Source: Pseudomonas versuta (lineage in GTDB: Bacteria > Pseudomonadota > Gammaproteobacteria > Pseudomonadales > Pseudomonadaceae). From it: a DNA stretch of 64,000 bases. The DNA is taken from assembly GCF_001294575.1 (NCBI RefSeq), contig NZ_CP012676.1, positions 1,674,001 to 1,738,000 on the forward strand, written 5' to 3'. Shown here in pieces: positions 13,116 to 33,041 of the stretch (within the stretch, counting starts at the first letter, position 1; each line of letters opens with the position of its first letter). The position numbers were made by a program, and so were the translations under genes. Under the pieces are notes generated by a model. It was not told the DNA's origin. It ran no database searches and worked only from the letters and a program-made list of their open reading frames with translations.

Positions 13116-13143
13116 GCTGGCGGATAAAGGAGAGATAAAGCAA

Positions 13144-16365: not shown

Positions 16366-17697
16366 TCAGTTGTCAGAAACCTCGCCAGCCGGCAGGGCTT
16401 CCTTGCTGCGCCAGTGCGGCAGCGAGTTCCAGTAACGCTCGCCCTTGGCGTCGTCGTACATGCCTTCCCAACGCGAAATCACCAGTACCGCCAGGGCGTT
16501 ACCAATCACGTTCAGGGCGGTACGCGCCATGTCCATCACACGGTCAACACCGGCGATAAAGGCCAGGCCTTCAAGCGGAATACCCACGCTGCCCAGGGTT
16601 GCCAGCAGCACTACGAAGGACACGCCCGGTACGCCGGCGATGCCTTTGGAGGTGACCATCAAGGTCAGTACCAACAGCAATTGCTGGCTGATCGACAGGT
16701 CGATGCCATACAGCTGCGCGATAAAAATCGCCGCGATACTTTGATACAGGGTCGAACCGTCAAGGTTGAACGAGTAGCCGGTCGGTACCACGAAGCTGCA
16801 GATAGCCTTCGGTGCGCCGTAGGCTTCCATCTTCTCGATCACCCGCGGCAGCACGGTTTCAGAGCTGGCAGTGGAGTAAGCCAGAACCAGCTCGTCCTTG
16901 AAGATGCGCATCAGCTTGATCACCGAGAACCCGAACAGACGAGCAATCAGGCCCAGCACCACGAAGGCGAAGAAGGCAATGGCGAAGTAAACCAGAAGCA
17001 CCAGCTTGGCCAGCGGCACCAGCGACGCAAAACCGAAGTTGGCAACGGTCACGGCGATCAGCGCAAACACACCGATTGGCGCGTAGTTCATGATCATGTG
17101 CGTGACTTTGAACATCGACTCGGACACGCCCTGGAAGGTTTTCACCAACGGGTCACGCAGCTCGGCGTTCAGGCTCGACAGGCCGAGGCCGAAGAGTACC
17201 GAGAAGAAGATGATCGGCAGCATCTCACCGCGAGCCATGGCAGCGAAGATGTTCGACGGAATCAGATTGAGGATGGTTTGAATGAAGGCGTGCTCATGGG
17301 TCACTTCAGCGGCAGTGGCCTGATACTTGGAAATATCGACCGTGCCCAGTGTACTCATGTCGATGCCGGTGCCCGGCTGGAACACGTTGGCCAGCACCAG
17401 GCCGACCAGAATCGCGATGGTGGTCACCACCTCGAAGTAAAGGATGGTTTTAAGACCGATACGCCCAAGCTTCTTCGCATCACCGACGCCTGCAATCCCG
17501 ACAACCAGCGAGGAAATCACGATCGGGATCACGATCATCTTGATCAGACGGATAAAGATATCACCGGCAGGTTGCAGAACGTTGCTGATCCACCAGGCCT
17601 TTTCGGCACTGAAATGGTTAAGCAGGGCGCCGATTGCAATCCCCAGTACCAGACCGATGAGGATTTGCCAGGCGAGGCTAAGTTTTGCCTTCTTCAT
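16366..17697 (-). CDS. gltP: glutamate/aspartate:proton symporter
   Basis: 443-aa inner-membrane carrier of the DAACS family taking up glutamate and aspartate with protons. There are eight TM segments plus re-entrant loops. The HP1 serine-rich stretch is AYSTASSETVLPRV, the NMDGT-equivalent motif appears as YSFNLDGSTLY, and the HP2 region is VTSKGIAGVPGVSFVVL. Length and N-terminus (MKKAKLSLAWQILIGLVLG) match GltP rather than DctA. A single gene with its own upstream region (17698-18062); a REP pair follows its 3' end. Confidence 0.93.
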   Translation of the reverse strand: MKKAKLSLAWQILIGLVLGIAIGALLNHFSAEKAWWISNVLQPAGDIFIRLIKMIVIPIVISSLVVGIAGVGDAKKLGRIGLKTILYFEVVTTIAILVGLVLANVFQPGTGIDMSTLGTVDISKYQATAAEVTHEHAFIQTILNLIPSNIFAAMARGEMLPIIFFSVLFGLGLSSLNAELRDPLVKTFQGVSESMFKVTHMIMNYAPIGVFALIAVTVANFGFASLVPLAKLVLLVYFAIAFFAFVVLGLIARLFGFSVIKLMRIFKDELVLAYSTASSETVLPRVIEKMEAYGAPKAICSFVVPTGYSFNLDGSTLYQSIAAIFIAQLYGIDLSISQQLLLVLTLMVTSKGIAGVPGVSFVVLLATLGSVGIPLEGLAFIAGVDRVMDMARTALNVIGNALAVLVISRWEGMYDDAKGERYWNSLPHWRSKEALPAGEVSDN

Positions 17698-18062: not shown

Positions 18063-19601
18063 TTAGTTTTTGGCGGTATTGCCGCTGCCCGATCCGGTAT
18101 TTGCAGATGCTGAAGCCATCAGCAGGGTTGCCGATGACATGTTCGACCATGGCCTGAACACCGCAAAGCTGGCGAGCGCCAGCAACAATACGCTGCTGGC
18201 GCCATACACCAGTACCCAGCCGAAACCCTGGTTCAGGGCCGCGTGAAAGATAGCGGCTGGCACTTCGATCTTGCCGGCCGCCAGGGTTTGCGCTGCGGCC
18301 TGTAATGCCAGCGGGTCAGGCGTACCAGGTAAGGTCTGGCGCAGGCTGGCAGCAATCCCTTCCACCAGTATCCAGCCCATTACGGCGATGTTGATCGCAA
18401 GCGATATCATCCGCGCGCTCATGTCCATGCCGGATGCCATGCCTGTCCTGGCCGGGGGCACGGACCCGGTACTGAGATTGGTCACCGGGGTATTAGTCAG
18501 GCCAAGCCCGGTACCCGCCAGCAAGCAACCGGCGGTCATGCACGCCAGCAGCCACTGCGGGTTCGCGACACCTGTAGCCATCACTATCAGCCCTGCACCT
18601 ATGGCCAGCATTCCGGCGGGAATCATCACCCCCGGGTGGAGGGTGAGCATCAGTCGCTCAGCCAGCGGTGGAATCAACAAGGTCGGGAGGGTGTAAGCCA
18701 GTAGCAGCAATCCACCCTCGAGCCCGCTAAGCCCCATGCCTGTCTGGACGTAGATGGGCAGATAAATCATTAACGGCCAAAAGCTGAAATTCATGCCCAT
18801 GGATCCCAGCAGTGCCCCAGAGAATTGCCGGATCCGGAATACCGAAAAGTCGATCACCGGTTGCGGGTTGAGCTTTTGTGAAATCAGAAAAACCATGAAG
18901 GTCAACAGCGTGGCCAGTGCTGCCCAGCAGACCGTCGCTCTCGACATATCGGGCTGGGGGCCTTGAATAATCAGGTAGGTCAAGCCAAAAACGCTCAACG
19001 CCAACAGCACGATACCGAGGCTATCAAGCTTGCCTGCGGGAGCATCCCGTGACGACTGCACACCTGCCCGGCCGAGGGCTGCGGTCAGCAGTGCCAACGG
19101 CACATGCACCAGAAACACCCATTGCCAGCTCGACAGGGCAACGATCCCCGCGCCGATCACAGGCCCCAATCCCAGCCCTGCGCCAAACACCACACCCCAC
19201 CAGGCAAAGGCTTTGCTGCGGCTGACGGGATCGGCGAACTGTCGGGACAGAATGGAAATCTGGCAAATCAACATCGCGCCCCCGCAGGCTCCTTGCAAAG
19301 CCCTGGCGACAATCAGCAGTGGCGCGCTGTCGGCAAGCCCGCAGGCCAGCGAGGTCAGACCGAACAGCGTCACGCTGGTTAAAAACAGGGTTTTGCGACC
19401 GTAGCGGTCGAGCCAGGCGCCGACCGCCATCAACACCGTGGTACAGGCCAGGGTGTAGGCATTCATGACCCATTGCAGGTCGCTGAAACGGGCTCCGAGC
19501 TGGGTGTCCAGGGTTGGCAGGATCACCGGCACGCTGGATATTTCCAGGCCGAACATCATCGCCGCCAGGCATACCGCCGCCAACGTTACTGGCGCTCTCA
19601 T
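18063..19601 (-). CDS. MFS transporter, DHA2 (EmrB/QacA-like) family
   Basis: 512-aa, ~14 TM drug:H+ antiporter-type exporter. The motif A analogue is WLDRYGRKTLF after TM2, and the motif C-like Gly/Pro-rich TM5 is GVVFGAGLGLGPVIGAGI. I chose ATG 19601 (MRAPVTLAAV) with AAGGA five bases upstream; ATG 19613 is also possible, and the frame opens at 19694. The divergent GlxA/FtrA-type regulator starts 108 bases away, so this exporter is its likely target. Substrate unknown. Confidence 0.9.
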   Translation of the reverse strand: MRAPVTLAAVCLAAMMFGLEISSVPVILPTLDTQLGARFSDLQWVMNAYTLACTTVLMAVGAWLDRYGRKTLFLTSVTLFGLTSLACGLADSAPLLIVARALQGACGGAMLICQISILSRQFADPVSRSKAFAWWGVVFGAGLGLGPVIGAGIVALSSWQWVFLVHVPLALLTAALGRAGVQSSRDAPAGKLDSLGIVLLALSVFGLTYLIIQGPQPDMSRATVCWAALATLLTFMVFLISQKLNPQPVIDFSVFRIRQFSGALLGSMGMNFSFWPLMIYLPIYVQTGMGLSGLEGGLLLLAYTLPTLLIPPLAERLMLTLHPGVMIPAGMLAIGAGLIVMATGVANPQWLLACMTAGCLLAGTGLGLTNTPVTNLSTGSVPPARTGMASGMDMSARMISLAINIAVMGWILVEGIAASLRQTLPGTPDPLALQAAAQTLAAGKIEVPAAIFHAALNQGFGWVLVYGASSVLLLALASFAVFRPWSNMSSATLLMASASANTGSGSGNTAKN

Positions 19602-19708
19602 CGATTCCTTCATGCTGCATGACTTCCATGGGTTCAAGTTCAGGCAGCGATGATCAGGGGAGGGCGCACGGGTGGAAATCGGCATAAAGGCCATGTATCG
19701 TCAATTTC

Positions 19709-20704
19709 ATGCCAAAACTCATTGATGACACTCTTGCCCCCTTTAACGCCATGCTGGTGGTACTGGCTTACGATCAGCTGTGCACTTTCGAGTTCGGCAC
19801 CGCCATCGAGGCATTCGGGCGCGATGATCCGCAGCGCAAGGCACCGCTCTACGATCTGCGGGTTGCTGCTGTGGAGCCGGGACCGCTGAGGGCCTTCGGG
19901 GGTGTGCAGATCGTTGTGCAAGGAGGGCTTGAGTTACTGGCGCAGGCCGGCACCATTGTCATCCCGGGCTGGCGCGACCTTGCACCGGACGTGCCCGCAG
20001 AACTGCTTGAGCAATTGAGGGCGGCCAGTGCCCGGGGCTGCCGGATTGTCACGATTTGTGCCGGCACCTTTGTACTTGCAGCCACCGGCTTGCTGGCGGG
20101 CAAGCGTGCCACTACCCACTGGCATCATCACCTGGCCCTGGCCCGTGCCTACCCGGATATCCAGGTTGAGCCCTCGGTGCTTTACGTCGATGAGGGCGAC
20201 ATCCTGACGTCCGCGGGCAGCTCCTCCGGGATCGATGCCTGCCTGCATTTGATCCGCCGCGACTTTGGCCCTGACGCTGCGAACCGCGCCGCCCGGCGCA
20301 TGGTGACGCCTCCGCACCGGTTGGGGTGTCAGGCGCAATACATTGAGCAACCCGTCAGCGTCAAACCCGGCAGCAGCCTGGCGCCCCTGCTGGATCAGTT
20401 GCGGGCGCACCCGAACAGCGAAATTGATATTGCGCATTTAGCCCGCATCGTCAACATGAGCCGCCGCACCTTCCTGCGCCGCTTTCACGATGCCACCGGC
20501 ACCACTCCCGGCGACTGGTTGCTTGGGGTCCGGCTAGAGCGTGCCAAGGTCTTGCTGGAGACCAGCGTATTGTCCATACCGCGGATTGCCGAACAATGCG
20601 GGCTGGGTTCGGCAGAGAACTTGCGCCACCACTTTCGCAACAAACTGGGGAGCAGTCCTACCTGTTATCGCAAACAGTTCGGGCGGGCAGTGCCGGCTGA
20701 TTGA
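19709..20704 (+). CDS. ftrA: GlxA/FtrA-type AraC family transcriptional regulator
   Basis: 331 aa. The N-terminal DJ-1/PfpI-like domain (VVLAYDQLCTFEFGTAIEAFG, TICAGTFVLAATGLLAGKRATTHW) is followed by an AraC-type double HTH from ~residue 230 (DIAHLARIVNMSRRTFLRRFH, and IPRIAEQCGLGSAENLRHHF). The LCTFEFG signature and the layout match the FtrA group. It is divergent to the DHA2 exporter gene and probably controls it from the shared 108-bp gap. Confidence 0.88.
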   Translation: MPKLIDDTLAPFNAMLVVLAYDQLCTFEFGTAIEAFGRDDPQRKAPLYDLRVAAVEPGPLRAFGGVQIVVQGGLELLAQAGTIVIPGWRDLAPDVPAELLEQLRAASARGCRIVTICAGTFVLAATGLLAGKRATTHWHHHLALARAYPDIQVEPSVLYVDEGDILTSAGSSSGIDACLHLIRRDFGPDAANRAARRMVTPPHRLGCQAQYIEQPVSVKPGSSLAPLLDQLRAHPNSEIDIAHLARIVNMSRRTFLRRFHDATGTTPGDWLLGVRLERAKVLLETSVLSIPRIAEQCGLGSAENLRHHFRNKLGSSPTCYRKQFGRAVPAD

Positions 20705-20755
20705 ATAGAGCGCGCCAAGGCGGTTCACCTCGACAGGTCATTAAACGGGATCTAC

Positions 20756-21187
20756 ATGGACGAGCAAGAGGTTTGCAGCAACAGCCACTGGGCAGTGACT
20801 CATCGGCGAGATGCCCGTTACGACGGCTACTTGATCATGTCATCGGTACAGGTCGCATCCGACCTCAGCGATTTAAGCGACCAGGCGCTGTCATCCCTGG
20901 GGCTAATGATGAAAACCCTGGAGTGCCTGCTGGTAAAGGCGTATTCGCCCTACAAGGTGGTGTTTTACAAATTGGGTTTCTCCCCGGGTTTCAACGTACA
21001 TTTTCATGTTGCTCCCGTCTCCCGGGCCTTGCTGTCAGAGATAGCAGAACACCCCGCATACCCCGACGAGCCTGACGGAAATGACGTCATCCTTTATCTG
21101 AGTCGGCACTATTGCGAAAGACCTCTGCGCGCAGAGGAAACCGCAAAACAGCGCTCGGCGGTTCGTCTGCTGCGCACTTTTGTGTGA
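20756..21187 (+). CDS. HIT-like protein with degenerate histidine triad
   Basis: 143 aa. The region FNVHFHVAPV (residues 79-88) resembles the histidine-triad motif HxHxHxx, but the third His is Ala (H82, H84, A86). HIT proteins hydrolyse or transfer nucleotidyl groups through the middle His of the triad; H84 is retained, so a reduced or altered activity is possible. The preceding stretch (DARYDGYLIMSSVQVASDLSDLSD) fits the HIT N-terminal layout. GGGA precedes ATG 20756. It is transcribed behind the AraC-type gene (51-base gap). Confidence 0.65.
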   Translation: MDEQEVCSNSHWAVTHRRDARYDGYLIMSSVQVASDLSDLSDQALSSLGLMMKTLECLLVKAYSPYKVVFYKLGFSPGFNVHFHVAPVSRALLSEIAEHPAYPDEPDGNDVILYLSRHYCERPLRAEETAKQRSAVRLLRTFV

Positions 21188-21774
21188 ACAAATACCCATC
21201 AGTGGAGGGTTGCAGTCCGGTGCCTTGTCGTTTCTTCAACTGTGTTGCTATGTGGTTTGTTCTCTCATATCGGGCATAAAATTTGTATTTATTGACCGGT
21301 ATCGACTGAGGCGTGCAGGTTCGGCCATGTAGTTCGATCGCAGAATTGTGCGTTACGCCAGTGCCGCTTCAATCTGCAGTCCCGATGAAACAAGGCTTAT
21401 AGCCTTAAAAGTGTGCAAAGGTAACGACTGCCTGCTGCGTTGTGTAGCCTCGTAACGCTTCTTTGACCTATTGACTGATTCCACATAATTGTTGGCGTCG
21501 CTGGGTTTTGACTGAGTGACACTCCGGTCTGGCGATCTGCTAAGCATGCTGTTAGCGCTCAAAAATCTCCTCTTGGACCCTCTGCACGCAGTAACCATTG
21601 GCTATTGAGAGAGACTTGATTGCGGCCCCGGCATCACGGCATTCCAGGGGCGTTCGTTTGGCGAGTGAATAGTGGCTGCCAATCGGTCATTCCAACCCCG
21701 AATCGGTCAATGGCATATGCAATGCAGTCTTGCAGGCATTACAGATGCTGCCACTTCACCAGACAGGCTTGATC
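21188..21774. other. intergenic region before the flavoprotein/kinase operon
   Basis: About 590 bases without a confident gene. A leftward open frame at 21353-21598 has a Lys/Arg-rich part (NNYVES, KKRYEATQRS) vaguely like the C-terminus of IS6-type transposases, but the match is too weak to call. The promoter for the operon starting at 21775 must be here or just upstream of 21730. Confidence 0.35.
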
Positions 21775-23184
21775 ATGACGAAACCATTCCCGAATCAGAC
21801 CGATGCCTACGACGTTGTCGTTATTGGCGGCGGCGTTGTGGGATGCGCGATGGTACGGCGCTTTACCCTCGAAGGCGCGCGGGTGCTCCTTCTGGAGAAA
21901 AGCCCTGACATCCTTTCCGGCGCCAGCAAAGGCAACAGCGCCATTTTGCATACCGGCTTCGATGCGCCGACCGCAAGTCTCGAACTGCAGTGCATGAAAG
22001 ACGGCTACCGGGAATACCTGGATATTCGCTCGAAAATGTCGCTGCCCCTGCTGGAAACCGGGGCAATGGTCGTGGCCTGGAATGAGGCTGACCTGCACAA
22101 GCTGCAGGGGATTGTTCAGCAGGCCCATGACAACGGTGTCGCGGACGTCTCGTTGATCGATCGCCAACAGGTGCACGCCCTGGAACCGTACCTGGCACTG
22201 AACGCACTGGGGGCGGCCAGGGTCCCGGGTGAATTTTTGATTGATCCGTGGTCGGCCCCGTTGGGCTATCTGCTGCAGGCGCTGATGCACGGCGCTGAAG
22301 TGAAATTCAATACACAAGTCGACGGCGGCCGGTTTGATGGTCAGATCTGGTCTCTGGAGACCACTGCCGGGATGATCCGTGGCAAGACCATCATCAACTG
22401 CGCCGGTTTGTTCGGCGATGTGCTGGAGCAAAAGCTGCTGGGCCAGTCAAGCTTCTCGATCCATCCGCGCAAGGGCCAATTTGTGGTGTTCGACAAGGCA
22501 GCAGCCCGCTACCTGACGAACATCATCTTGCCGGTTCCGAATGAACGAACCAAAGGCATCGTCCTGACCCGCACGGTCTACGGCAATCTGCTGGTCGGGC
22601 CTACGGCCGAAGAACAGCAAGACCGGATTCATGCAGGGCTGGACAGCGAGGTGCTGCAACAGTTGGTGGATGCTGCGGTTGAGCGTATTCCGCAACTCGA
22701 GGGCATGCCTGTCACGGCAACCTACGCCGCGCTGCGACCTGCAAGTGACAAGAAAGAGTATCGGGTGGGCCGGGTCGAAGGTAAAAACTGGATGACCGTC
22801 GGCGGCATTCGCTCAACGGGGCTGACCGCTGCGCTGGGGATCGCAAAGCACGTGTTCAGCCTTTACCAGGAACACCATGTGCCGCTCCCTGCTACCAGCC
22901 TGCAATGGCCGGCGCTGCCTAACCTTGCCGAACATTTGCCGCGGGATTATCAGCGCCCCGGCTACGGGGAAATCATTTGCCACTGTGAAATGGTCACCCT
23001 CAGAGAAATCGAGAATGCTCTGGCCAGTGCACTTCCACCCGGCGATCTGGGGGGGCTGAAGCGCCGCACCCGTGCCTGCATGGGGCGCTGTCAGGGTTTT
23101 TATTGTGGGGCCCGGGTAGCTGAGCTAAGCGCCGGCCATCTGGCCATTCCCCTCGCTACAGGTGTTTGTCATGAATCCCATTGA
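21775..23184 (+). CDS. GlpA-like FAD-dependent oxidoreductase with C-terminal [2Fe-2S] (BFD-like) domain
   Basis: 469 aa. The N-terminal FAD motif is YDVVVIGGGVVGCAMVRRF (residues ~12-30), followed by the DAO-type fold (GASKGNSAILHTGFDAP; RKGQFVVFDK). The last ~75 residues hold four Cys in CHCEMV and CMGRCQGFYC, the BFD-like iron-sulfur domain of GlpA. It resembles the catalytic subunit of anaerobic glycerol-3-phosphate dehydrogenase, so it likely oxidises a phosphorylated polyol or hydroxyacid. Start ATG 21775 has AGG upstream; the frame opens at 21730. It overlaps the next flavoprotein gene by 14 bases, and the FGGY kinase follows, which implies a kinase-then-dehydrogenase pathway. Confidence 0.85.
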   Translation: MTKPFPNQTDAYDVVVIGGGVVGCAMVRRFTLEGARVLLLEKSPDILSGASKGNSAILHTGFDAPTASLELQCMKDGYREYLDIRSKMSLPLLETGAMVVAWNEADLHKLQGIVQQAHDNGVADVSLIDRQQVHALEPYLALNALGAARVPGEFLIDPWSAPLGYLLQALMHGAEVKFNTQVDGGRFDGQIWSLETTAGMIRGKTIINCAGLFGDVLEQKLLGQSSFSIHPRKGQFVVFDKAAARYLTNIILPVPNERTKGIVLTRTVYGNLLVGPTAEEQQDRIHAGLDSEVLQQLVDAAVERIPQLEGMPVTATYAALRPASDKKEYRVGRVEGKNWMTVGGIRSTGLTAALGIAKHVFSLYQEHHVPLPATSLQWPALPNLAEHLPRDYQRPGYGEIICHCEMVTLREIENALASALPPGDLGGLKRRTRACMGRCQGFYCGARVAELSAGHLAIPLATGVCHESH

Positions 23185-24409
23185 AATCCAGTACGTTGAT
23201 GTCGCCATTGTCGGTGGTGGCCCGTCGGGCCTTTCGGCTGCGATAGAGCTGCGCAGGCTTGGCGTATCCAGAGTGGTGGTGATTGAGCGCGAGCCGCAAG
23301 CGGGCGGCATACCGCGCCATTGCGGGCATCCGCCTTTTGGCTTGCGCGAATACGCAAGGGTTTATACCGGTCCCGATTACGCCCGGCGCAACGTGGATGA
23401 GGCGTTAAAGGCCGGCGTGGATATTCGGCTTCAACACTCGGTAACCCGGCTGGGGGACGATGGCCTTCTGGAGGTTGCAACGCCCGACAAGGCAATCATT
23501 ATCCAGGCCGGTCGCGTGCTGATTGCCACAGGCGCAAGGGAAACCCCGCGTTCTGCCCGCCTGGTAGGGGGCGATCGCCCGCTCGGGGTCATCAATACCG
23601 GGGCCTTGCATTCCTATCTCTACCTTGAACACCTCAAGCCTTTCGAGCGGCCATTGATTGTGGGGACCGAGCTGGTCAGTCTGTCTGCGGTGCTGAGCTG
23701 CCGTCGTGCCGCAATCAAGCCCGTGGCGATGATCGAGAGCAATGCTAGGGCCACGGCCCGCTGGCCGTTGTCCCTGTTCCCCAGGCTGTGCGGGGTACCC
23801 ATGTACTTCGGTGCGCAGTTGCTGGAGATCCACGGCACCGGCCGGGTAGAGGGCGCAAGCGTGCGGCTGGCCAATGGCAGTGTCAGGCAACTGGACTGTG
23901 ACGGGGTGTTGCTTACCGGGTGTTTTATCCCTGAGTCCAGCCTGGTGCGAATGAGCAATCTGAAGCTGGATCTCAAGAGTGGCGGGCCGGAAATTGACCA
24001 GTACGGTCGCTGTTCCGATCCGGTGTACTTCGCTGCGGGCAACCTGTTGCGGCCTGTCGAAACCGCAGGCTGGTCGTTCCGTGAGGGCCGTAAAATAGCC
24101 GCCATGATGGTCAAGGACATGCACGGCCAGCTTCCGGATGCAGAGCATGGGGTGCCAATCATCTGCAAGGGCGGGTTGAAACTGTGTGTGCCACAACGCT
24201 TGAACCTCTCTTCAGTAGCCGGTATGACGCACCTGCAAATGAGGGTGGGCAAGGCAGTCAAAGGGCGTCTGGTGGTGCGCGCGGATGGCAAGGAACTTTG
24301 GTCGCGTGCCGGCTCCTGCCTGCCGGAGCGCCGGCTGCTGGTGCCGATTGCAAGTTTGAATGTGCCAAAGGGCGTGCAGCAACTCGAAGTCGACTTTGTC
24401 GGCCAATAA
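23171..24409 (+). CDS. FAD/NAD(P)-binding oxidoreductase, partner of the GlpA-like protein
   Basis: 412 aa. An N-terminal dinucleotide motif, DVAIVGGGPSGLSAAIELRR, is followed by EREPQAGGIPRHCGHPPFG, a second ATG-type motif VLIATGARETPRSAR and a C-terminal extension of ~80 residues. The layout resembles the flavoprotein partners of GlpA-like enzymes (GlpB or NADH-oxidase-like subunits), which pass electrons to quinone or NAD+. ATG 23171 overlaps the previous gene, so translation is coupled. No GlpC-type iron-sulfur membrane subunit is present; the electron acceptor is therefore open. The tail (RLVVRADGKELWSRAG...) could be a protein-protein contact region. Confidence 0.8.
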   Translation: MNPIEIQYVDVAIVGGGPSGLSAAIELRRLGVSRVVVIEREPQAGGIPRHCGHPPFGLREYARVYTGPDYARRNVDEALKAGVDIRLQHSVTRLGDDGLLEVATPDKAIIIQAGRVLIATGARETPRSARLVGGDRPLGVINTGALHSYLYLEHLKPFERPLIVGTELVSLSAVLSCRRAAIKPVAMIESNARATARWPLSLFPRLCGVPMYFGAQLLEIHGTGRVEGASVRLANGSVRQLDCDGVLLTGCFIPESSLVRMSNLKLDLKSGGPEIDQYGRCSDPVYFAAGNLLRPVETAGWSFREGRKIAAMMVKDMHGQLPDAEHGVPIICKGGLKLCVPQRLNLSSVAGMTHLQMRVGKAVKGRLVVRADGKELWSRAGSCLPERRLLVPIASLNVPKGVQQLEVDFVGQ

Positions 24410-24435
24410 CAACCCATACGGCGAGGAGACTTTAA

Positions 24436-25851
24436 ATGCGTATTGCCGCTCTCGATCAAGGCACCACCAGCACCCGGGTGCTGGTGGTGACCGAAAATGG
24501 CTCGGCCGACATCCAGCTGTCGCTCCGTCACCAGCAGCACCATCCACAGCCGGGCTGGGTAGAGCACGATCCGCTTGAGTTGCTGAGCAACATTGAGCGG
24601 TGCCTGGAAGCCACGGGCCAGGTGGACGCCATCGGGATCGCCAATCAGGGGGAGAGTTGTCTGGCGTGGGATGCCAGGACCGGAGAGCCTTTATCTGCGG
24701 TCATCGTCTGGCAGGATAATCGTACCTCTGCACAGATCGCCAGGCTGCGCAGTGACGGCGGCGAGACATTGACCCTGGAGCGGGCCGGGCTGCCGCTGGA
24801 CCCTTATTTTTCGGCCAGCAAACTCGCCTGGATAGTACAAAACCTGCCCGCCGCCCAGAACGCCCTGAAAGCGGGCCGGTTGCGTCTGGGTACCACGGAT
24901 GCCTACTTTCTGGATCGCCTCACCGGTGTCTTTGCCACCGATGTCACCACCGCATCGCGAACCTCGCTGATGAATCTGTCTACCGGGCAATGGGACAGCG
25001 AGCTGTGCGAATTATTTGGCGTGCCCATTGAGACGCTGCCTGAAATCCGCGATACCGTCGGCCACTTTGGCGAGATTGGGGTGACCCCGGTAACGGCATC
25101 CATTGTCGATCAGCAGGCCTCTCTCTATGGTCACGGTTGCCGTGAAGAAGGCGATGCAAAGATTACCTTCGGTACCGGTGCATTCGCGCTGACCCTGACC
25201 GGCGAGCAAATTATCAGGGCTCCGGAAAAGGGACTTTTGGCAACCATCGCCTGGCAGATAAACGGCAAGCCGACCTATGCCATGGATGGCGGCGTTTATG
25301 ATGCGAGCGCGGCGGTCGAATGGGCAGGGCGGCTCGGCTTGTTCTCGGACTTTTCGCAGCTTGCGGCTTTTGATCAGCCGCCAGCCATTTCCCGGCAGCT
25401 GGCATTTGTGCCTGCGTTGTCCGGGCTCGGCTGCCCGCACTGGGATCGAAGTGCAGCAGCGCTCTGGGTCGGCATGAATGGCGGTACGACACGCGAGGAC
25501 ATGTGCCAGGCATTGCTTGAAGGCGTTGCGTTGCGCAGTGTTGAAGTGATCACGTCCATGGATGATTTCTTGAATGTGACCGATCATTTATCCATCGACG
25601 GCGGGCTGGCGCGCAGCCCCTATTTTGCCCAGTTTCTCGCGGATACCTTGCAACGCAGCATTGTCACCCAGCGTTTTGACGAACTGACTGCCTTCGGTTG
25701 TGCCGCTCTGGCCGCTAAAGGCATAGGTGTCGAACTCAAAGCCCCGCGCAACACCAGTACCACGTTCCGACCCAAAGCCAGCGCCGGGGAGGCGCTGCAA
25801 TGGCGAGCTACCTTCGCCGATGCCGTGAAGCGCTGCACCCACTGGCGTTAG
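24436..25851 (+). CDS. FGGY-family (glycerol-kinase-like) carbohydrate kinase with altered substrate pocket
   Basis: 471 aa with the ATPase motif DQGTTSTR (residues 7-14), DPYFSASKLAWI (Tyr124), TTASRT and VDQQASLYG (Asp225-Gln226), all close to glycerol kinase. In GlpK, glycerol is held by Arg83, Glu84, Tyr135 and Asp245. Here the Arg of the NQRE motif is Gly (NQGES, Gly72-Glu73) while Glu, Tyr and Asp are kept, so a substrate larger than or different from glycerol is inferred. It is also ~30 residues shorter than GlpK. GAGGAG precedes ATG 24436, 26 bases after the second flavoprotein, forming a three-gene operon. Confidence 0.85.
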   Translation: MRIAALDQGTTSTRVLVVTENGSADIQLSLRHQQHHPQPGWVEHDPLELLSNIERCLEATGQVDAIGIANQGESCLAWDARTGEPLSAVIVWQDNRTSAQIARLRSDGGETLTLERAGLPLDPYFSASKLAWIVQNLPAAQNALKAGRLRLGTTDAYFLDRLTGVFATDVTTASRTSLMNLSTGQWDSELCELFGVPIETLPEIRDTVGHFGEIGVTPVTASIVDQQASLYGHGCREEGDAKITFGTGAFALTLTGEQIIRAPEKGLLATIAWQINGKPTYAMDGGVYDASAAVEWAGRLGLFSDFSQLAAFDQPPAISRQLAFVPALSGLGCPHWDRSAAALWVGMNGGTTREDMCQALLEGVALRSVEVITSMDDFLNVTDHLSIDGGLARSPYFAQFLADTLQRSIVTQRFDELTAFGCAALAAKGIGVELKAPRNTSTTFRPKASAGEALQWRATFADAVKRCTHWR

Positions 25852-25907
25852 ATGCCGGGCAACCGGATTCAGCGAGGGGCAGACAACCGCGTTCGCCCCT
25901 CGATCAT

Positions 25908-26690
25908 TCATGGCCAGTCGGGTTTGTTCAGGGCGGGGGCCTCATGCACCTCAACCCGGGCGTCGGCCAATGCTTTGGCAAGTTCACCCATGGGTTTTCG
26001 ATCGATCACAAGCCGGTCAATCCGCTCCAGCGGGAACACCTGGAACAGCGCTCTTTTGCCCAGCTTCGAAGAGTCTGCAATGACGGTCAGGTAGCGTGTA
26101 CGCGCAATCATCGCCCGGGTGATTTCCGCTTCCTCAATCGAAAAGTCAAAAGCCCCGTCCGTGCTCAGCGCACCAATCGTCACCACGGCATGTTCGGCGT
26201 TAAATCTGGCGATTTGCTCCATGGCCAGTGCGCCGGTGTTCTGCTCCGATTCGGGGCGATATTCCCCTCCGATCATAAATACTCGATTGCCGCTTGCGCC
26301 AATACTAGCCGCGATTTGCAGTGAGTTGGTAATCACCGTAATGCGATTGAGGCGCGCCAGGTCCCGGGCAAAAAACAAGGTGGTGGTGCCCGTGTCGATG
26401 AGGATGCTGTCGCCGGGTGCGTAGAGCCCTGCCGCATATTTGGCCACTGCCCGTTTTTCCTGGGAGAACTCGTTCATCCGTGTCTGAAACGCGTTTTCGT
26501 GTTCGCCGCAGGGTGGCAGCGATGCACCGCCATGGAATTTGGTGACTTGCCCATCCTCGGCCAGAGAGGTCAAATCCCTGCGAATGGTTTCCTGTGACGT
26601 GCTCAGGGTTCGTGCCAGTTCGTCGACCGAAATCCGCTCGCGCTGACGAAGCAGTTCAAGGATGTGTTGTCGTCTTTCGTTGGGGCGCAT
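25908..26690 (-). CDS. DeoR family transcriptional regulator
   Basis: 260 aa from ATG 26690 (MRPNERRQHILELLRQRERISVDELA), preceded by GAGGA. The frame is open to 26753 but that part is unlikely. An N-terminal HTH_DeoR (ELARTLSTSQETIRRDLTSL) is followed by the DeoRC sugar-phosphate sensor domain (IDTGTTTLFFARDL, VIADSSKLGKRALF). Such repressors respond to the phosphorylated intermediate of the pathway they control, here presumably the product of the neighbouring kinase. It is convergent with the kinase gene and divergent from the EutH-like gene, so it probably controls both. Confidence 0.88.
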   Translation of the reverse strand: MRPNERRQHILELLRQRERISVDELARTLSTSQETIRRDLTSLAEDGQVTKFHGGASLPPCGEHENAFQTRMNEFSQEKRAVAKYAAGLYAPGDSILIDTGTTTLFFARDLARLNRITVITNSLQIAASIGASGNRVFMIGGEYRPESEQNTGALAMEQIARFNAEHAVVTIGALSTDGAFDFSIEEAEITRAMIARTRYLTVIADSSKLGKRALFQVFPLERIDRLVIDRKPMGELAKALADARVEVHEAPALNKPDWP

Positions 26691-26911
26691 GTTCAATCCT
26701 CTCAGTGCTACGCGAATGCTCTTTGGCCGCGCATTGCTGTTACCCGGGCACACAAATGATGCCGGGGTAACGACGTCAGTGAATAGCTGCTCGCCATGGA
26801 AGACTTCAGCGTTTGGTATTCACCTTTGCCGCCACACATCGCTGGCCCATTGCTTTCAAGGGGTCGCTCAAGAGTACGGAATAAAAATGACCGATTCCAG
26901 TGGGTTTAACG

Positions 26912-26930
26912 ATCAAAACCACATCAAAAC
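26912..26930. promoter_or_regulatory. direct repeat, possible DeoR-type operator
   Basis: ATCAAAAC occurs twice (26912-26919 and 26923-26930) one helical turn apart in the gap between the DeoR gene and the EutH-like gene. Repeats of this kind are common DeoR operators. The assignment is an inference. Confidence 0.35.
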
Positions 26931-27168
26931 AACAAATGGCATGCGAAGTGGTTACTAATACGGCGTGAGTGAAACCTTTGGGCGCAGATACACAGCGTGC
27001 AGACGATGAAGCACAAACAAAACAGGGTATTTGAGTCCTGGTCGCTTCGGTTGATCCCCGGTGGATTTTCGCGAACGATCCAGCAATCGGTTTATGAGCC
27101 TCAGCGCTCATTCGTTGGTGCGACCAGCTTTGGCTGCGCCCGTTCAAGCATTTGATTCAGCACAGGTG

Positions 27169-28422
27169 ATGGCAATGGCGGAATTCGGGAATTACGTAAT
27201 TTATCTGATCATGATAGGTGCCGTTGTCGGGGCTTTCGCCTCGGTGCTCAAGCCAGAGAGCGGCCTTGGTAAAGAGTTCGTGAACGGCATTCACTCGATC
27301 GGTCCTGTGTTTCTGGCGCAGGCAGGGATCATGGTGGCAATCCCGTACCTGTCGAAATTCATCGAAGTCGCTCTGGGGCCTTATTTCGGTGCAATGGGCT
27401 CGGATGTCTCGATTGCCGCGCTGTCCATCATTGCCGTGGACATGGGCGGGTACCAGTTGGCCGATGCTCTGGCGGCGAACCGCGACATGTGGATTACCGC
27501 AATGATTGTCGGCTACACCTCGGGCGCCACCATCGTTTATCTGATCCCGGTCGGCTTGATGATGCTTGACCGTAAAGACCACAAGTATCTGGCGTTGGGT
27601 GCGATGGCCGGTTTGATCAGCATCCCGTTTGCAGTGCTGGCATCGCTGATGATGATCACCGCATTCAATCTGCCGGTACGTGAAGTCGTGTCCACCACCG
27701 CCCCCGCACTGCACTACCTGACACTGGACTTCGTCGGCTGTCTCAAGTTGCTCGCGCCGCTGTTTGTGTTTTGTTTTTTGCTGGCTGGCGGGTTGCGCTA
27801 CAAGGCCTCGCTGATGGTGTCCGGCTTTCTGATCTTCGGCAAATTGATGGATGCTTTCATCAAGATCGTATTGGCCCTGGCAATCGTGGAGCACTTCACC
27901 GGTTTCTTCATGAAGAATTTTGGCGTATGGGGCTTCGATCCGATGTTTGCTGATCAGAAGGAGCTGTTCCGCGCCATCGAAATTGCCGGTTATATCGGCA
28001 TCATGCTCGCGGGCACATTTCCGATCTGCTACCTGTTTCAGCGCTACTGCAAAAAACCGATGGAAGTGCTGGGCAAGCATCTCGGGCTTTCGGCCAATGG
28101 TGCCGCGGCATTCATCATGGTGTTCGCCAATATCATTGCGGTGTATCACCTGTTCAAGAAGATGAATGCCAGGGACAAAGTCCTGTGTGTGGCGCTGGGT
28201 GTTTGCGCTCAGGCGACCATTGGCGATCACCTGGCATTCACCGCGAACTTCCAGCCGACGCTGATCATGCCGATTCTGCTGGGCAAACTTTTCGGCGGCC
28301 TGCTGGCGGTCGCGATCGCGATCCGTATCTCCGTGCCAGCCGCTCAACGTTATGAAGCCGAGGAGCAGGCACGGGCGCAAATTGCCGATCAGTTTGGTGT
28401 TGCGTCGATCCAGCCTGCCTGA
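27169..28422 (+). CDS. EutH-family permease (ethanolamine/amino-alcohol transporter-like)
   Basis: About 417 aa with ten or more hydrophobic segments. EutH hallmarks are visible: IIAVDMGGYQLADALA, GATIVYLIPVGLM, RAIEIAGYIGIMLAGTFPI, and ATIGDHLAFTANFQPTLIMPILLGKL. EutH takes up ethanolamine. Start ATG 27169 is chosen to place TM1 as in EutH; the frame opens at 27061 and the SD is weak, so the start is uncertain. No eutBC, eutD or microcompartment genes are near. Its neighbours are the DeoR regulator, the kinase and the flavoproteins, suggesting it imports the cluster's substrate rather than ethanolamine for EutBC. Confidence 0.82.
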   Translation: MAMAEFGNYVIYLIMIGAVVGAFASVLKPESGLGKEFVNGIHSIGPVFLAQAGIMVAIPYLSKFIEVALGPYFGAMGSDVSIAALSIIAVDMGGYQLADALAANRDMWITAMIVGYTSGATIVYLIPVGLMMLDRKDHKYLALGAMAGLISIPFAVLASLMMITAFNLPVREVVSTTAPALHYLTLDFVGCLKLLAPLFVFCFLLAGGLRYKASLMVSGFLIFGKLMDAFIKIVLALAIVEHFTGFFMKNFGVWGFDPMFADQKELFRAIEIAGYIGIMLAGTFPICYLFQRYCKKPMEVLGKHLGLSANGAAAFIMVFANIIAVYHLFKKMNARDKVLCVALGVCAQATIGDHLAFTANFQPTLIMPILLGKLFGGLLAVAIAIRISVPAAQRYEAEEQARAQIADQFGVASIQPA

Positions 28423-28478
28423 AACCGGACATCCGTAGTCGGGGAGGGCACAGGCTCTCCCGTTATAACGAGGTAAAC

Positions 28479-28835
28479 ATGAGAAAGATTTTTCTGGCCT
28501 GCCCTTACAGCCATGCAGACGCATCGGTCACCCATAATCGTTTCATCGAGTGCAACAAGGTGGCAGCAAGGATCATTGAGTCGGGCAACGTGGTCTTCAG
28601 CCAGGTTTCAATGTCCCACCCGATCAACCTGGCATTTGCAGGCAAGGACAGCGCCACCATCGGCAAGCTGTGGGCGCCGGTGGATGCGGTGTTCATGGAC
28701 ATGATGGAGGAACTGATCGTTCTTGATCTCGTAGGTTGGGACCTGAGCTCGGGGATCAAGCGTGAAATCGAGTTCTACAAAAACCGTGGGCAGAAGGTAA
28801 GCCTGTGGTCGGAAGTGCAAAGCGAATTTAACTGA
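28479..28835 (+). CDS. DUF1937 family protein
   Basis: 118 aa, opening MRKIFLACPYSH and containing NVVFSQVSMSHPINL, MDMMEELIVLDLVGWDLSSGI and KREIEFYKNRGQKVSLW, the pattern of DUF1937 (a Rossmann-like, nucleoside 2-deoxyribosyltransferase-type fold). GAGG precedes ATG 28479, 57 bases after the EutH-like gene, and a strong terminator follows, so the two form one transcript. The reaction is unknown. A ribosyl or glycosyl transfer on the imported substrate is conceivable but only inferred from fold. Confidence 0.8.
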   Translation: MRKIFLACPYSHADASVTHNRFIECNKVAARIIESGNVVFSQVSMSHPINLAFAGKDSATIGKLWAPVDAVFMDMMEELIVLDLVGWDLSSGIKREIEFYKNRGQKVSLWSEVQSEFN

Positions 28836-29107: not shown

Positions 29108-30319
29108 ATGAATAAAAAACACTGGGTTGCCTCTGTCTGCGCGCTCTTGACGGTCAGCGCATCGCTTGTAGCCCATGCCGATGTAAAGCTGGGCGCGCTG
29201 TATCCCTTCAGCGGTTCCCTGGCCCTACTCGGTGACGAGAGCTATCGCGGACTGGAAATCGCCATCGCAGAGCGCAATGCTTCAGGGGGCTTGAAGGGCG
29301 AACAGATCAAACTGCTCAAGGCGGACGCGGTAGATGCCGGTCAGGCCGTGGGGGCTGCGCGCAAGCTCACCTCGGTAGAAAATGTTACGGCAGTGTTCGG
29401 CAGTTATTCTTCAGCCCTGGCTTTTGCCGCGACCCAGGTCACCGAGCTGGCAGGTGTGCCTTATTTCGAGTTGGGCGCGGTGTCGGACAACATCACCGAG
29501 CGCGATCTTAAATACGTGATGCGCAGCAATCCCACCGCGCGCAATTTTGCTGAAGGCACCATCACGGCGATCACCGACGTTGCGGCTCCCGCACTGGATA
29601 TCGACCCGCAAAAGCTAAAGGTCGCAATCATTCACGAAGATGCCCTGTATGGCACCACGATCGCGAACTTCCAGAAAAAAATTGCCCAGGAAAAAGGCTT
29701 GAATGTGGTTGAGGTGCTGCCCTATTCAGCCAAGGCGGTCGATCTGTCTTCCTTGATTCTGCGCCTCAAGGGCTCACAGGCCGATGTGGTTCTGCAAACC
29801 AGTTATCAGAATGATACGACCCTGTTTTTCCGTCAGATCCGCGAGGCCGGTTTCAAGCCCAAGGCCGTAATTGGCGCGGGTGGCGGCTATTCCATGCAGG
29901 ACACGCTCAAGGTCGTGGGTGCAGAAAATATGGAAGGCATCCTGGACGTGGATTTCCCGCAGTTTCAAACCAACGAGGCAGGCGCGCCGGGGATTGCTGC
30001 ATTCGCCCGGGTCTATAAAGAACGCTACGGCACGGACCCGCGTTCAGGGCACAGTCTGATGAATTACGTGGGGGCAAAGATCTTTCTCGACGCCATGGAA
30101 AGCAGCGAGTCTCTGGACGCAGATGCCATTCGGGCGTCGGTGTCCCGGGTCGACATTGCCGTGGGTAATACCGCCGCCGGGGTCGGTGCAAAGTTTGCCG
30201 ATAACGGACAGAACGAGCGCGCCAGTACCGCCATCATGCAATGGCAGGACGGTGTGTTGAAAACGGTTTATCCAGAGTCTGCAGCTGTGGCCAATGTGCG
30301 GTTTATCGACCCCCAGTAA
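29108..30319 (+). CDS. ABC transporter periplasmic substrate-binding protein (LivK-like)
   Basis: 403 aa with a signal peptide cleaved after ASLVAHA, then a type-1 periplasmic binding fold (Peripla_BP_6: LGALYPFSGSLALLGDESYRGLEIAIAERNASGG; AVFGSYSSALAFAATQV; HEDALYGTTIANF). It captures the solute for the permease genes downstream. Family members bind branched-chain amino acids, amides or urea, and also aromatic acids, so the ligand is not defined. AGGAGAG precedes ATG 29108. It is the first gene of the operon whose promoter has two LacI-type operators. Confidence 0.92.
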   Translation: MNKKHWVASVCALLTVSASLVAHADVKLGALYPFSGSLALLGDESYRGLEIAIAERNASGGLKGEQIKLLKADAVDAGQAVGAARKLTSVENVTAVFGSYSSALAFAATQVTELAGVPYFELGAVSDNITERDLKYVMRSNPTARNFAEGTITAITDVAAPALDIDPQKLKVAIIHEDALYGTTIANFQKKIAQEKGLNVVEVLPYSAKAVDLSSLILRLKGSQADVVLQTSYQNDTTLFFRQIREAGFKPKAVIGAGGGYSMQDTLKVVGAENMEGILDVDFPQFQTNEAGAPGIAAFARVYKERYGTDPRSGHSLMNYVGAKIFLDAMESSESLDADAIRASVSRVDIAVGNTAAGVGAKFADNGQNERASTAIMQWQDGVLKTVYPESAAVANVRFIDPQ

Positions 30320-30372
30320 TGCACTGACACTAGTAGTGTTGCCTATTCGTTCGCTCGACAAGAGGGCGCTCC

Positions 30373-31248
30373 GTGGATATTTTTCTGCAGCTGGTTCTGA
30401 ACGGCTTATTGCTGGGAGGAACATTAGCCATCATCAGTATCGGCCTGACTTTGATATTCGGCATCGTGCGCGTGGTCAACTTTGCCCACGGCGAATTTTT
30501 AATGATCGGGCTGTACGCCGTTTATTTCATGAATGCCAAGTTCGGGATTCATCCCTACGTTGCAATTATTCCGGCGACGATAGTGTTGTTTGCGGCAGGC
30601 GCGGCGATGCAGCGCTTCATCATTGAGCCGCTGCTGAGCGCTGAGGGGCATATTCAAATCTTCGCCACGGTAGGCGTCTCCATCGCGCTGATGAACGCAG
30701 CGCTGCTCATGTTTGGCGCTGATGTGAGGACGGTGCAGGACGTTTCATTCGGGACCGGGTCCGTGACCCTTGGCCCGTTTCGCGCCAGCAGCGGGCAGTT
30801 GATTACCTTTGCCGCTTCGCTGGTGATGGTTGCCGGCCTGCACTGGTTCTTGCACAGCACATTTCTGGGGCGGGCCGTACGGGCAACCGCCCAGCATCGC
30901 GACGCTGCCCAGCTGATGGGCGTGGATGTGAAAAAAATCTACATCTTTGCCTTCGGTCTCGGCTGTGCATGCCTGGGCGTGGCGTCCGGCCTGATTGCAC
31001 CGCAATACCCGGTATTCCCTACGGTGGGTACTTTCTTCGTGCTGACCGCTTTCGTCATCGTTGTTCTCGGCGGTCTGGGAAGTTTGTCGGGAGCGCTGAT
31101 GGGCTCCATGGTCATTGGTGTGGTGGACAGTCTGGCGGGTTATTACATTGCCCCGGACTTGAAGGAGGTCGTCTACTTTTCGATCTTTCTGGCCATTCTG
31201 GTTTTCCGCCCGACCGGGCTCTTCGGCGCCGGCCGCGGGTCTGAATAG
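30373..31248 (+). CDS. branched-chain-type ABC transporter permease (LivH-like)
   Basis: 291 aa, about eight TM helices. It opens with MDIFLQLVLNGLLLGGTLAIISIGLTLIFG and contains RVVNFAHGEFLMIG and the cytoplasmic EAA-like loop GRAVRATAQHRDAAQLMGVDVKK that docks the ATPases. Start is GTG 30373 with GAGGG upstream, 53 bases after the binding-protein gene. Confidence 0.92.
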   Translation: MDIFLQLVLNGLLLGGTLAIISIGLTLIFGIVRVVNFAHGEFLMIGLYAVYFMNAKFGIHPYVAIIPATIVLFAAGAAMQRFIIEPLLSAEGHIQIFATVGVSIALMNAALLMFGADVRTVQDVSFGTGSVTLGPFRASSGQLITFAASLVMVAGLHWFLHSTFLGRAVRATAQHRDAAQLMGVDVKKIYIFAFGLGCACLGVASGLIAPQYPVFPTVGTFFVLTAFVIVVLGGLGSLSGALMGSMVIGVVDSLAGYYIAPDLKEVVYFSIFLAILVFRPTGLFGAGRGSE

Positions 31249-31259
31249 GAATTAGGCTG

Positions 31260-33041
31260 ATGAATATCTTGCATCCCCGCGTCTATATGAGTTTTTTGCT
31301 TCTGGCGCTGTTGCTGATCATCCCGATCAGTGCCGGATCGCCCTTTGTTTACCACCTCTTCATCTTGATTTGCAGTTACGCGGCGCTGGCCAGTGCCTGG
31401 AACATAGTGGGCGGTTTTGCCGGCCAGCTGTCTCTTGGGCACGCGGTGTTTTATGGCGTCGGCGCCTACACAACCACCTTGCTGATGATCAACTTTGGCT
31501 TGAGCCCGTGGATCGGCATGTTTGCGGGGGCCATTCTCTCGGCGCTGGTTGCGATAGTTATCAGTTGGCCGTGCTTCAGGCTGCGCGGGCCATTCTTTGC
31601 CCTGGCAACCATCGCCGTACTTGAAGTGGTGCGGCTGGTAGCCATCAATCAGCACGATGTCACCGGCGGCGCGGCAGGGCTGGGGGTGCCCCTCAAGCTG
31701 GGTTTTGAATGGATGTTGTTTCGGCCTCGCTGGCCGTACCTGTTAATAGCCTTCGGGTTCTTGGTCATCACCCTGGCAGTGTCCTGGAAAATCAAGACGT
31801 CACGTTTGGGCTATTACCTCATCGCCGTGCGCGAGCGTGAAGACGCGGCGCATGCAGTGGGGGTCAACTCGGTAAAAGTGAAGCTCATAGCAGTGGTGCT
31901 GTCTGCTTTCCTGACCAGTCTGATCGGCAGTTTCCATGCGATGTACCTGACGTTTATTGAGCCGGGGTCCATGTTCTCTCTCGACTTGTCGATCCAGATT
32001 GCGATGTTCGCGCTGATCGGTGGTCTGGGTACGGTTTCGGGGCCGCTGATCGGCACTCTTCTGGTTCTGCCGCTGGCCGAGCTTGCCCGTGGCTGGCTCG
32101 GAGACATGGGCAGCGGTGTACATGGCCTGGTGTACGGCATTGTCCTGGTGGTGGTGGTACTCACTATTCCCCAAGGGCTTGTGGGCAGGTTCGGCGCGAG
32201 AGTGTTTGGCTGGATCGATTCGTTACCTGGCGGCAAGACACCGCAGCGCAGGCCGGCACCGCTCGCAACTGTTTCGCCGACGCCACAGCGCCCGGTGACA
32301 AAGGGCGAGCCGATTCTTGTTGCAAAGCATTTGCACAAGTTTTTCGGCGGTTTGCACGCCACCAACGATGTGTCATTGAGCCTGGCCGAAGGTGAGATCG
32401 TCGGGGTTATCGGCCCGAACGGCGCGGGTAAAACCACCGTGTTTAACCAATTGTCAGGCTTCCTCTTGCCGTCCGAGGGGAGGGTCAGGGTGCGCCTGCC
32501 GGACGGTGAGTGGGTGACACCCGCCAGCCCGGCAGAGTTTGCAAGGGCAGGAATCGGCCGGACCTTCCAGATCGTGCAGCCATTTGCTGATCTGAGCGTG
32601 AGTGAAAACATCATGCTCGGTGCGTTCATGCATACCGCCGACACGGACGAGGCCCGGGCTATCGCCAGCCAGGTCGCGCAGTTGACGGATCTGGCAGCCT
32701 TGCTCGACACCAGGGCCCGAAACCTCACCGTAGGCGGCATGAAGCGCCTTGAAATGGCCCGGGCACTGGCGACCCGTCCGCGAATCCTGTTGCTTGATGA
32801 GGTGATGGCCGGCCTCAATCCGACCGATGTGGTCAAGGCCATCGAAGTCATTCGCCGGGTTCGCGACTCCGGTGTGAGTGTGCTGATGATTGAGCACCTG
32901 ATGCAGGCCACCATGAGTCTGTCCGATCGAATTATCGTCATCAGCTCAGGCTCGATGCTGACCCAGGGTGCGCCTCAGGATGTGATCAATGATCCCCGGG
33001 TAATCGAGGCCTATCTGGGCAAGGAGTACAGCCATGCTTAA
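31260..33041 (+). CDS. fused ABC permease-ATPase (LivM-LivG fusion)
   Basis: 593 aa. Residues ~1-320 form a LivM-type permease (SAWNIVGGFAGQLSLGHAVFYGVGAY; docking loop YLIAVREREDAAHAVGVNSVKVK). A Pro-rich linker (~320-350) leads to a LivG-type ATPase with Walker A GPNGAGKTT (~residue 385), Q-loop IGRTFQIVQPF, signature-like LTVGGMKRLEMARAL and Walker B ILLLDEVMAGL. LivM and LivG are usually separate; a fusion is known in some proteobacterial transporters. It overlaps livF by 8 bases. Confidence 0.92.
   Translation: MNILHPRVYMSFLLLALLLIIPISAGSPFVYHLFILICSYAALASAWNIVGGFAGQLSLGHAVFYGVGAYTTTLLMINFGLSPWIGMFAGAILSALVAIVISWPCFRLRGPFFALATIAVLEVVRLVAINQHDVTGGAAGLGVPLKLGFEWMLFRPRWPYLLIAFGFLVITLAVSWKIKTSRLGYYLIAVREREDAAHAVGVNSVKVKLIAVVLSAFLTSLIGSFHAMYLTFIEPGSMFSLDLSIQIAMFALIGGLGTVSGPLIGTLLVLPLAELARGWLGDMGSGVHGLVYGIVLVVVVLTIPQGLVGRFGARVFGWIDSLPGGKTPQRRPAPLATVSPTPQRPVTKGEPILVAKHLHKFFGGLHATNDVSLSLAEGEIVGVIGPNGAGKTTVFNQLSGFLLPSEGRVRVRLPDGEWVTPASPAEFARAGIGRTFQIVQPFADLSVSENIMLGAFMHTADTDEARAIASQVAQLTDLAALLDTRARNLTVGGMKRLEMARALATRPRILLLDEVMAGLNPTDVVKAIEVIRRVRDSGVSVLMIEHLMQATMSLSDRIIVISSGSMLTQGAPQDVINDPRVIEAYLGKEYSHA

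Follow-up and report, generated by a model that had tools for sequence, protein, structure and literature searches.

A candidate DeoR-controlled gene set for phosphorylation and oxidation of a serinol-type amino-diol in Pseudomonas versuta

Which compound is taken up and degraded by a bacterial gene set that combines an ethanolamine-type permease with a glycerol-kinase-like enzyme? The question is raised by a locus of Pseudomonas versuta contained in a stretch of 64,000 nucleotides, hereafter the window, which corresponds to positions 1,674,001 to 1,738,000 of NZ_CP012676.1, the single contig of a 5.15-Mb genome. A previous sequence-only reading had placed six genes at 21775-28835 of the window and proposed that they constitute an undescribed polyol or amino-polyol catabolic system; Pfam matches were obtained for all six. 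Our answer is that the set might represent DeoR-controlled catabolism of a serinol-type amino-diol that is phosphorylated and then oxidised, a proposal to which we attach slightly more doubt than confidence. The six genes are the following:

21775..23184, + strand: gA, GlpA/GlpO-like FAD (DAO) dehydrogenase subunit with a C-terminal BFD-like [2Fe-2S] domain (Pfam DAO and Fer2_BFD)
23174..24409, + strand: gB, second flavoprotein, predicted electron-transfer partner for gA (Pfam Pyr_redox_2)
24436..25851, + strand: K, FGGY kinase of the GlpK branch with Gly in place of E. coli GlpK Arg83, predicted amino-diol kinase (Pfam FGGY_N/C)
25908..26693, - strand: R, DeoR/GlpR-type regulator, predicted repressor for both units (Pfam HTH_DeoR and DeoRC)
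27175..28422, + strand: EutH-type permease, predicted amino alcohol importer (Pfam EutH, E 1.3e-111)
28479..28835, + strand: DUF1937 protein, nucleoside-deoxyribosyltransferase fold (Pfam DUF1937, E 2.3e-37)

The gene set and its conservation

The reading frames of gA and gB overlap by a few bases and K starts 26 bases further on, all on the + strand; they are followed by the DeoR gene on the - strand and then by the EutH and DUF1937 genes on the + strand. For the EutH gene, a start at 27175 is more likely than one at 27094, since most of the homologues listed (120) have lengths of about 400-420 aa.

Conservation was analyzed in 89 kinase loci, comprising the best 80 of 396 named genome loci retrieved with a profile of 13 kinases, eight plasmid loci and the window. 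Of these, 76 contain gA and 77 contain gB, several of the loci without one or the other being short contigs, and the DeoR cluster is present in 58; beyond Pseudomonas, the core of gA, gB and K recurs in many other Proteobacteria. EutH was found in 19 loci, always together with DUF1937 and always of Pseudomonas type (one is named Pantoea sp. Ap-967), and DUF1937 in 25, being absent in the other 64. This gene neighbourhood is far beyond chance. The expectation that the set is conserved together holds for the core trio gA, gB and K, but not for EutH, and mostly not for DUF1937, outside Pseudomonas. As a general unit the six genes do not stand: the full set is confined to the 19 Pseudomonas-type loci, and elsewhere other transporters replace EutH.

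Within the family of the window, the Pseudomonadaceae, the kinase is patchy (4 of 198 genomes sampled). EutH of whatever type occurs in 24 of these genomes and DUF1937 in seven; three of the DUF1937 matches are strong (>125 bits), each of them lying at most 5.3 kb from the kinase, and both EutH and DUF1937 are missing from the fourth kinase-bearing genome. In P. aeruginosa the two occur naturally fused in one protein of 549 aa (P0145). In that species the PA1487-PA1492 region resembles the window set in having the same six genes, which were seen annotated in locus L002, and differs from it in gene order, with EutH and DUF1937 at the opposite side of DeoR. Most of the locus-tag correspondences for PA1487-PA1492 are those that we presume. 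The structure 1T1J, of PA1492, is a DUF1937 protein; no experimental function was found for PA1487-PA1492.

Kinase and flavoproteins

K scores 427.1 bits against the GlpK equivalog model TIGR01311, below its cut-off of 590.35, and shares 34.6% identity with the GlpK encoded in the same genome; its closest named relatives, with 89-90% identity, are from Pseudomonas. It carries the motif NQGES, at a position where solved glycerol kinases show the NQRET type. The Arg-to-Gly change reported by the sequence-only reading was confirmed and proved to be invariant: Gly occupies the position of GlpK Arg83 in 88 of 88 aligned kinases (88 of the 89 loci, L052 being outside the clustered set). Arg83 belongs to a group of five signature residues that GlpK has at its glycerol site and, according to the corresponding passages of PMC3245297, is extremely well conserved across GlpK clusters. 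In the Plasmodium glycerol kinase, as described in part of PMC2680290, the glycerol hydroxyls are satisfied by Arg83, Glu84, Asp246, Tyr135 and Gln247. All 88 kinases have lost Arg83 and kept the other four signature residues (Glu84, Tyr135, Asp245 and Phe270), as well as the pocket residues Trp103 and Gln246. As these six pocket residues are kept and Arg83 is lost, K probably still binds a three-carbon polar substrate, in a pocket minus one positive charge. Loss of a positive Arg beside Glu84 and Asp245 would suit a cationic ammonium group, located either at C1 or at C2. Judged by these residues, K is not an ordinary GlpK.

A canonical GlpK, scoring 744.1 bits with TIGR01311 and adjoined by GlpF, is encoded elsewhere in the genome. 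Together with the invariance of the Arg83 replacement and the failure to find GlpF within 7 kb of the kinase in 88 loci, this sustains the earlier view that the substrate is not glycerol as such. Co-occurrence was analyzed in 30 kinase genomes chosen by hand among the 80 named loci; 24 of them also encode a GlpK above the cut-off, and 22 encode EutB. In Acidocella, the sixth of the remaining genomes, there is another GlpK-model match, below the cut-off. In four of the 30 genomes the ordinary EutB (about 730 bits) is accompanied by a weaker homologue of about 450 bits, at G573:C1:2698227, G578:C3:138067, G579:C16:343249 and G580:C5:215788, which is possibly a lyase for another amino alcohol.

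The best solved relative of gA is 4x9m, an L-alpha-glycerophosphate oxidase, and gA lies below the equivalog cut-offs of both GlpO (NF033460, 193 vs 460) and GlpA (TIGR03377, 118.1 vs 552.8). The His, Lys, Arg and Ser residues that align to glycerophosphate oxidase, including the catalytic His of Mycoplasma GlpO, are invariant in 73 of 73 gA homologues, two short gA reading frames having been left out. We take the aligned Lys and Arg to hold the substrate phosphate, and the four conserved residues appear fitting for a phosphorylated substrate. gB is thioredoxin-reductase-like: fold search gave mainly thioredoxin reductases, residues beyond about 322 being barely covered. The best sequence match of gB, the L-proline dehydrogenase alpha subunit 1y56_A, is absent among the 50 fold matches listed.

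Regulator, transporters and neighbouring genes

A nine-base motif, AATCGGTCA, was first spotted by eye in the window, where its only three exact copies in the whole 64 kb lie upstream of gA (two) and between DeoR and EutH (one). The predicted sites are:

21681..21689, + strand: AATCGGTCA, predicted operator upstream of gA (exact motif)
21701..21709, + strand: AATCGGTCA, predicted operator upstream of gA (exact motif)
21472..21480, - strand: one-mismatch copy of AATCGGTCA upstream of gA (motif scan)
26888..26896, - strand: AATCGGTCA, predicted operator in the divergent DeoR/EutH intergenic region (exact motif)

The motif was then scored in Pseudomonas loci, in 22 regions upstream of gA and 23 upstream of DeoR. 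Of these 45 regions, 41 contain it with no more than one mismatch (the gA copy of L033 overlapping the start codon); 19 copies are exact, vs 0.045 on average and never more than 2 when the motif was shuffled. When the window and near-duplicates were removed, it remained in 23 of 27 regions, with nine exact copies (shuffled mean 0.07) and 35 copies at one mismatch or fewer (shuffled mean 1.4, maximum 9). Its density is 4.28 per kb upstream vs 0.33 per kb over the loci. It was not found upstream of gA in L002 and L016, nor upstream of DeoR in L020 and L033. The DeoR protein is predicted to bind AATCGGTCA. No sigma-54 (nitrogen-control) promoter was found upstream of gA, DeoR or EutH with a simple consensus. 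In a passage of the P. aeruginosa transcription factor atlas, PA1490 is listed as a predicted motility regulator, and that passage gives no PA1490 motif (PMC8041468). Import, phosphorylation, oxidation and DeoR control had been proposed to form one unit; the conserved core, the shared upstream motif and the EutH-DUF1937 fusion support this.

The EutH of the window scores 672.3 bits with NF011668, over the cut-off of 575. In this respect, and in having EutBC next to DeoR in Chelatococcus (L007), the set resembles eut systems (EutH or Eat, with EutBC). Unlike them, the window locus has EutH without EutBC, as the sequence-only reading had remarked: no EutBC adjoins the set, and the genome has a single EutB, located at 5,116,987 of the contig, the kinase being at 1,698,436. 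That EutB adjoins an ethanolamine permease of its own (TIGR00908, 681.7 vs a cut-off of 381.75) and an aldehyde-dehydrogenase-like gene, which agrees with the claim that ethanolamine as such is not the substrate.

Transporters within 7 kb of the kinase were surveyed by tblastn in 88 loci, each class being represented by one or two seeds; some loci end at contig edges. EutH was found in 19, an amino-acid permease in 18, a tripartite ATP-independent periplasmic (TRAP) transporter in 15, a Pot-type (polyamine-type) ATP-binding cassette (ABC) transporter in nine, an ethanolamine permease in four, an SDF symporter in four, SBP_bac_5 in three and GlpF in none. In L027 the ethanolamine permease is 23 bp from the kinase and exceeds the TIGR00908 cut-off (564.2); in L034 it is just below it (358.7), and the Pot-type genes are below the PotB cut-off (163.7 vs 348). 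Four Pseudomonas loci (L013, L017, L019 and L056) keep DeoR and DUF1937, have no EutH and carry an amino-acid-permease-type gene 236-262 bp after the kinase. Other neighbours include a DMFase-like hydrolase directly before gA (L051, L052 and L054), a C-N hydrolase near the core (L004 and L060) and, downstream of the core on an Agrobacterium plasmid (L004), a class II aldolase (FBA) with a fructose-bisphosphatase (FBPase), as would be expected if the product were dihydroxyacetone phosphate (DHAP). Each of them is rare; the hydrolase, EutBC and aldolase neighbours point to amines and triose phosphate.

In its permease, FGGY kinase, DAO-family flavoprotein and DeoR-family repressor the set follows the same logic as glp (GlpF, GlpK, GlpABC or GlpO, GlpR). 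It differs in that the kinase lacks Arg83, kinase and gA fall under the GlpK, GlpA and GlpO equivalog cut-offs, gB is thioredoxin-reductase-like, and EutH, an amino-acid-type permease, TRAP or Pot takes the place of GlpF.

Several further genes were recorded around these loci. An SDF-family symporter at 16366-17697 (- strand) of the window, 4 kb upstream of gA, is 88% identical to one located between kinase and DeoR in L016, and L018 carries a close relative; the window symporter is possibly one more transporter associated with the set. A dCache/PDC-type chemoreceptor gene, a candidate substrate sensor, lies closely after the kinase in three Pseudomonas loci (L013:13169-15202, L018:11500-13473 and L022 near 11572-13482). 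R-x-W-Y is a signature of amine and amino-acid chemoreceptors, and it is absent in these three. Just 5′ of the set, at 18063-21187, the window contains a divergent major-facilitator-superfamily efflux-type gene, an FtrA-type AraC regulator and a 143-aa open reading frame without a Pfam match, none of which recurs in the related loci as clustered. After the DUF1937 gene, at 29108-33738, there are branched-chain-amino-acid-type ABC transporter genes (binding protein, permeases and ATPases), which we take as a separate unit because, in the clustering of the related loci, the first three do not reappear.

As for EutH itself, relatives of about 67-77% identity were found in Enterobacterales, and a class-wide search gave a match in one of 369 genomes, that of the window. 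Seven other EutH regions of family genomes are all without the kinase; EutB is directly beside EutH in L119 and within about 2 kb in L115 and L117, and no EutB was seen in L113, L114, L116 and L118, where ten proteins neighbouring EutH gave no clear substrate hint in Pfam.

On alphaproteobacterial plasmids, DeoR, a choline/ethanolamine-kinase-like protein and a DAO-GCV_T flavoprotein are clustered (L123:2651-8233, L128:955-9311 and L129:856-9314) with either EutH (Nitratireductor) or a betaine/choline-type ABC transporter (Ruegeria and Shinella). Like the window set, these join a DeoR regulator, a kinase, a flavoprotein and an amine transporter in one cluster; unlike it, their kinase is from another family and their flavoprotein is folate-type. 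They constitute a second candidate amino-alcohol pathway.

Candidate substrates and the proposed route

That a small amino-diol could be the substrate had been suggested earlier. The suggestion gains support from the amine-type transporter swaps, from the parallel Nitratireductor set and, in a small number of genomes, from amide hydrolases or EutBC adjoining the core; the substrate itself is one that we infer. From the gene content described, it is probably some amino-diol and, with clearly less assurance, it may be serinol itself (2-amino-1,3-propanediol). Serinol is favoured because, among the amino-diols considered, it is the only one that would give a central metabolite in these two enzymatic steps. 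EutH would import a small amino-diol, likeliest serinol, which the Arg83Gly kinase would phosphorylate to serinol phosphate; the gA/gB pair would then oxidise C2 of the phosphate ester, and the resulting imine would hydrolyse to DHAP and ammonium, neither of which would require an additional dedicated enzyme. The DeoR protein would repress both transcription units via AATCGGTCA until bound by a phosphorylated intermediate. The route would thus copy glycerol catabolism and feed ordinary sugar metabolism; its reactions, electron acceptor and inducer are those that we infer.

Serinol synthesis in rhizobitoxine producers passes via a phosphate intermediate. There, serinol is made from DHAP by an aminotransferase according to a passage of a rhizobitoxine review, and a word search of that review gave no mention of degradation, catabolism or utilization (PMC3222319). 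In the literature covered, from which subscription journals were mostly absent so that a negative is weak evidence, no paper was found that assigns a substrate to the set, and no serinol catabolic genes were found. TRIS degradation in Pseudomonas, in the sections consulted of PMC10848231, resembles the proposed route as an amino-polyol catabolism with ammonium release and differs from it in that alcohol and aldehyde dehydrogenases yield 2-hydroxymethylserine without a kinase. Two further reports were discarded: the ethanolamine-responsive genes in the passages of a Burkholderia-fungus transcriptome (PMC5209427) are a transporter and ethanolamine ammonia-lyase instead of the set, and the eut loci described for K. 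pneumoniae in part of PMC11101070 are unrelated to it.

Several observations weigh against serinol catabolism. TRAP transporters, present at 15 of the 88 loci, mostly carry acids, and no sought transporter class was found within 7 kb of the kinase by tblastn in 26. The amidase, EutBC and aldolase links occur each in just one to three of the 89 loci, and the P. aeruginosa locus L002 has no AATCGGTCA upstream of gA. Hyphomicrobium and Hansschlegelia are methylotrophs, and in five of the 30 genomes (three Hyphomicrobium and two Hansschlegelia, two of the five being metagenome-assembled) the Arg83Gly kinase is the only GlpK-model match, so a role in glycerol use is possible there. The only serinol growth test found for Pseudomonas, in the parts consulted of PMC10848231, was negative; it concerned P. 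hunanensis Teo1, the strain of the TRIS pathway, whose content in the genes discussed here is not established. Finally, the His that takes the C2-hydroxyl proton in Mycoplasma GlpO (in the relevant passage of PMC10726252) is the one kept in all 73 gA homologues, as expected for oxidation of a C2 alcohol, although it could alternatively deprotonate an ammonium.

This last residue is also what makes 3-amino-1,2-propanediol, or another C1-substituted glycerol, worth considering: gA would oxidise the C2 hydroxyl with the conserved GlpO base and give amino-hydroxyacetone phosphate, the kinase pocket that has lost Arg83 and kept Glu84 suits an amine at C1 too, and amine-type transporters fit equally. 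We know of no role of amino-hydroxyacetone phosphate as a central metabolite, yet no further enzyme recurs with the core gA, gB and K, and the FBA and FBPase genes of L004 fit DHAP better; we regard this substrate as unlikely. To the same extent, it seems to us improbable that the set is a second system for glycerol or glycerol-3-phosphate whose kinase differs in regulation or affinity. This would explain the six conserved pocket residues, the closeness of gA to glycerophosphate oxidase, the five genomes with a single GlpK-model match and the mention of PA1487 among presumed further glycerol kinases in a passage of PMC8151288; but Arg83, which binds glycerol in GlpK, is missing throughout the 88 aligned kinases, K scores far under the GlpK cut-off, no GlpF was found within 7 kb of the kinase in 88 loci, canonical glp genes exist in the genome of the window and the transporters are of amine type.

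Somewhat less probable again is a larger or non-amine polyol, such as a substituted glycerol, a glyceryl ether or a short deoxy-polyol, for which EutH and the other permeases would have been repurposed. Gly83 should enlarge the pocket, and the TRAP partners suggest a substrate that is not necessarily a cation; the repeated presence of EutH, ethanolamine permease, Pot-type ABC genes and amide hydrolases at the loci speaks against it.

Returning to serinol, it is conceivable, though on balance doubtful, that the set is the first dedicated serinol catabolic pathway, in which an Arg83Gly offshoot of GlpK acts with a GlpA-like pair switched from alcohol to amine oxidation to convert serinol phosphate to DHAP and ammonium. 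If so, the serinol-making step of rhizobitoxine producers would be run in reverse by a different chemistry, and a serinol pathway would exist in P. aeruginosa, plant-associated pseudomonads, rhizobia and methylotrophs. A conserved FGGY branch that is called glycerol kinase in many of the records examined, including those of P. aeruginosa, is probably misannotated, and the set places both EutH without EutBC and the orphan DUF1937 structure in a context. A testable proposal also follows for how soil and plant-associated bacteria may gain both carbon and nitrogen from serinol-like amino-diols.

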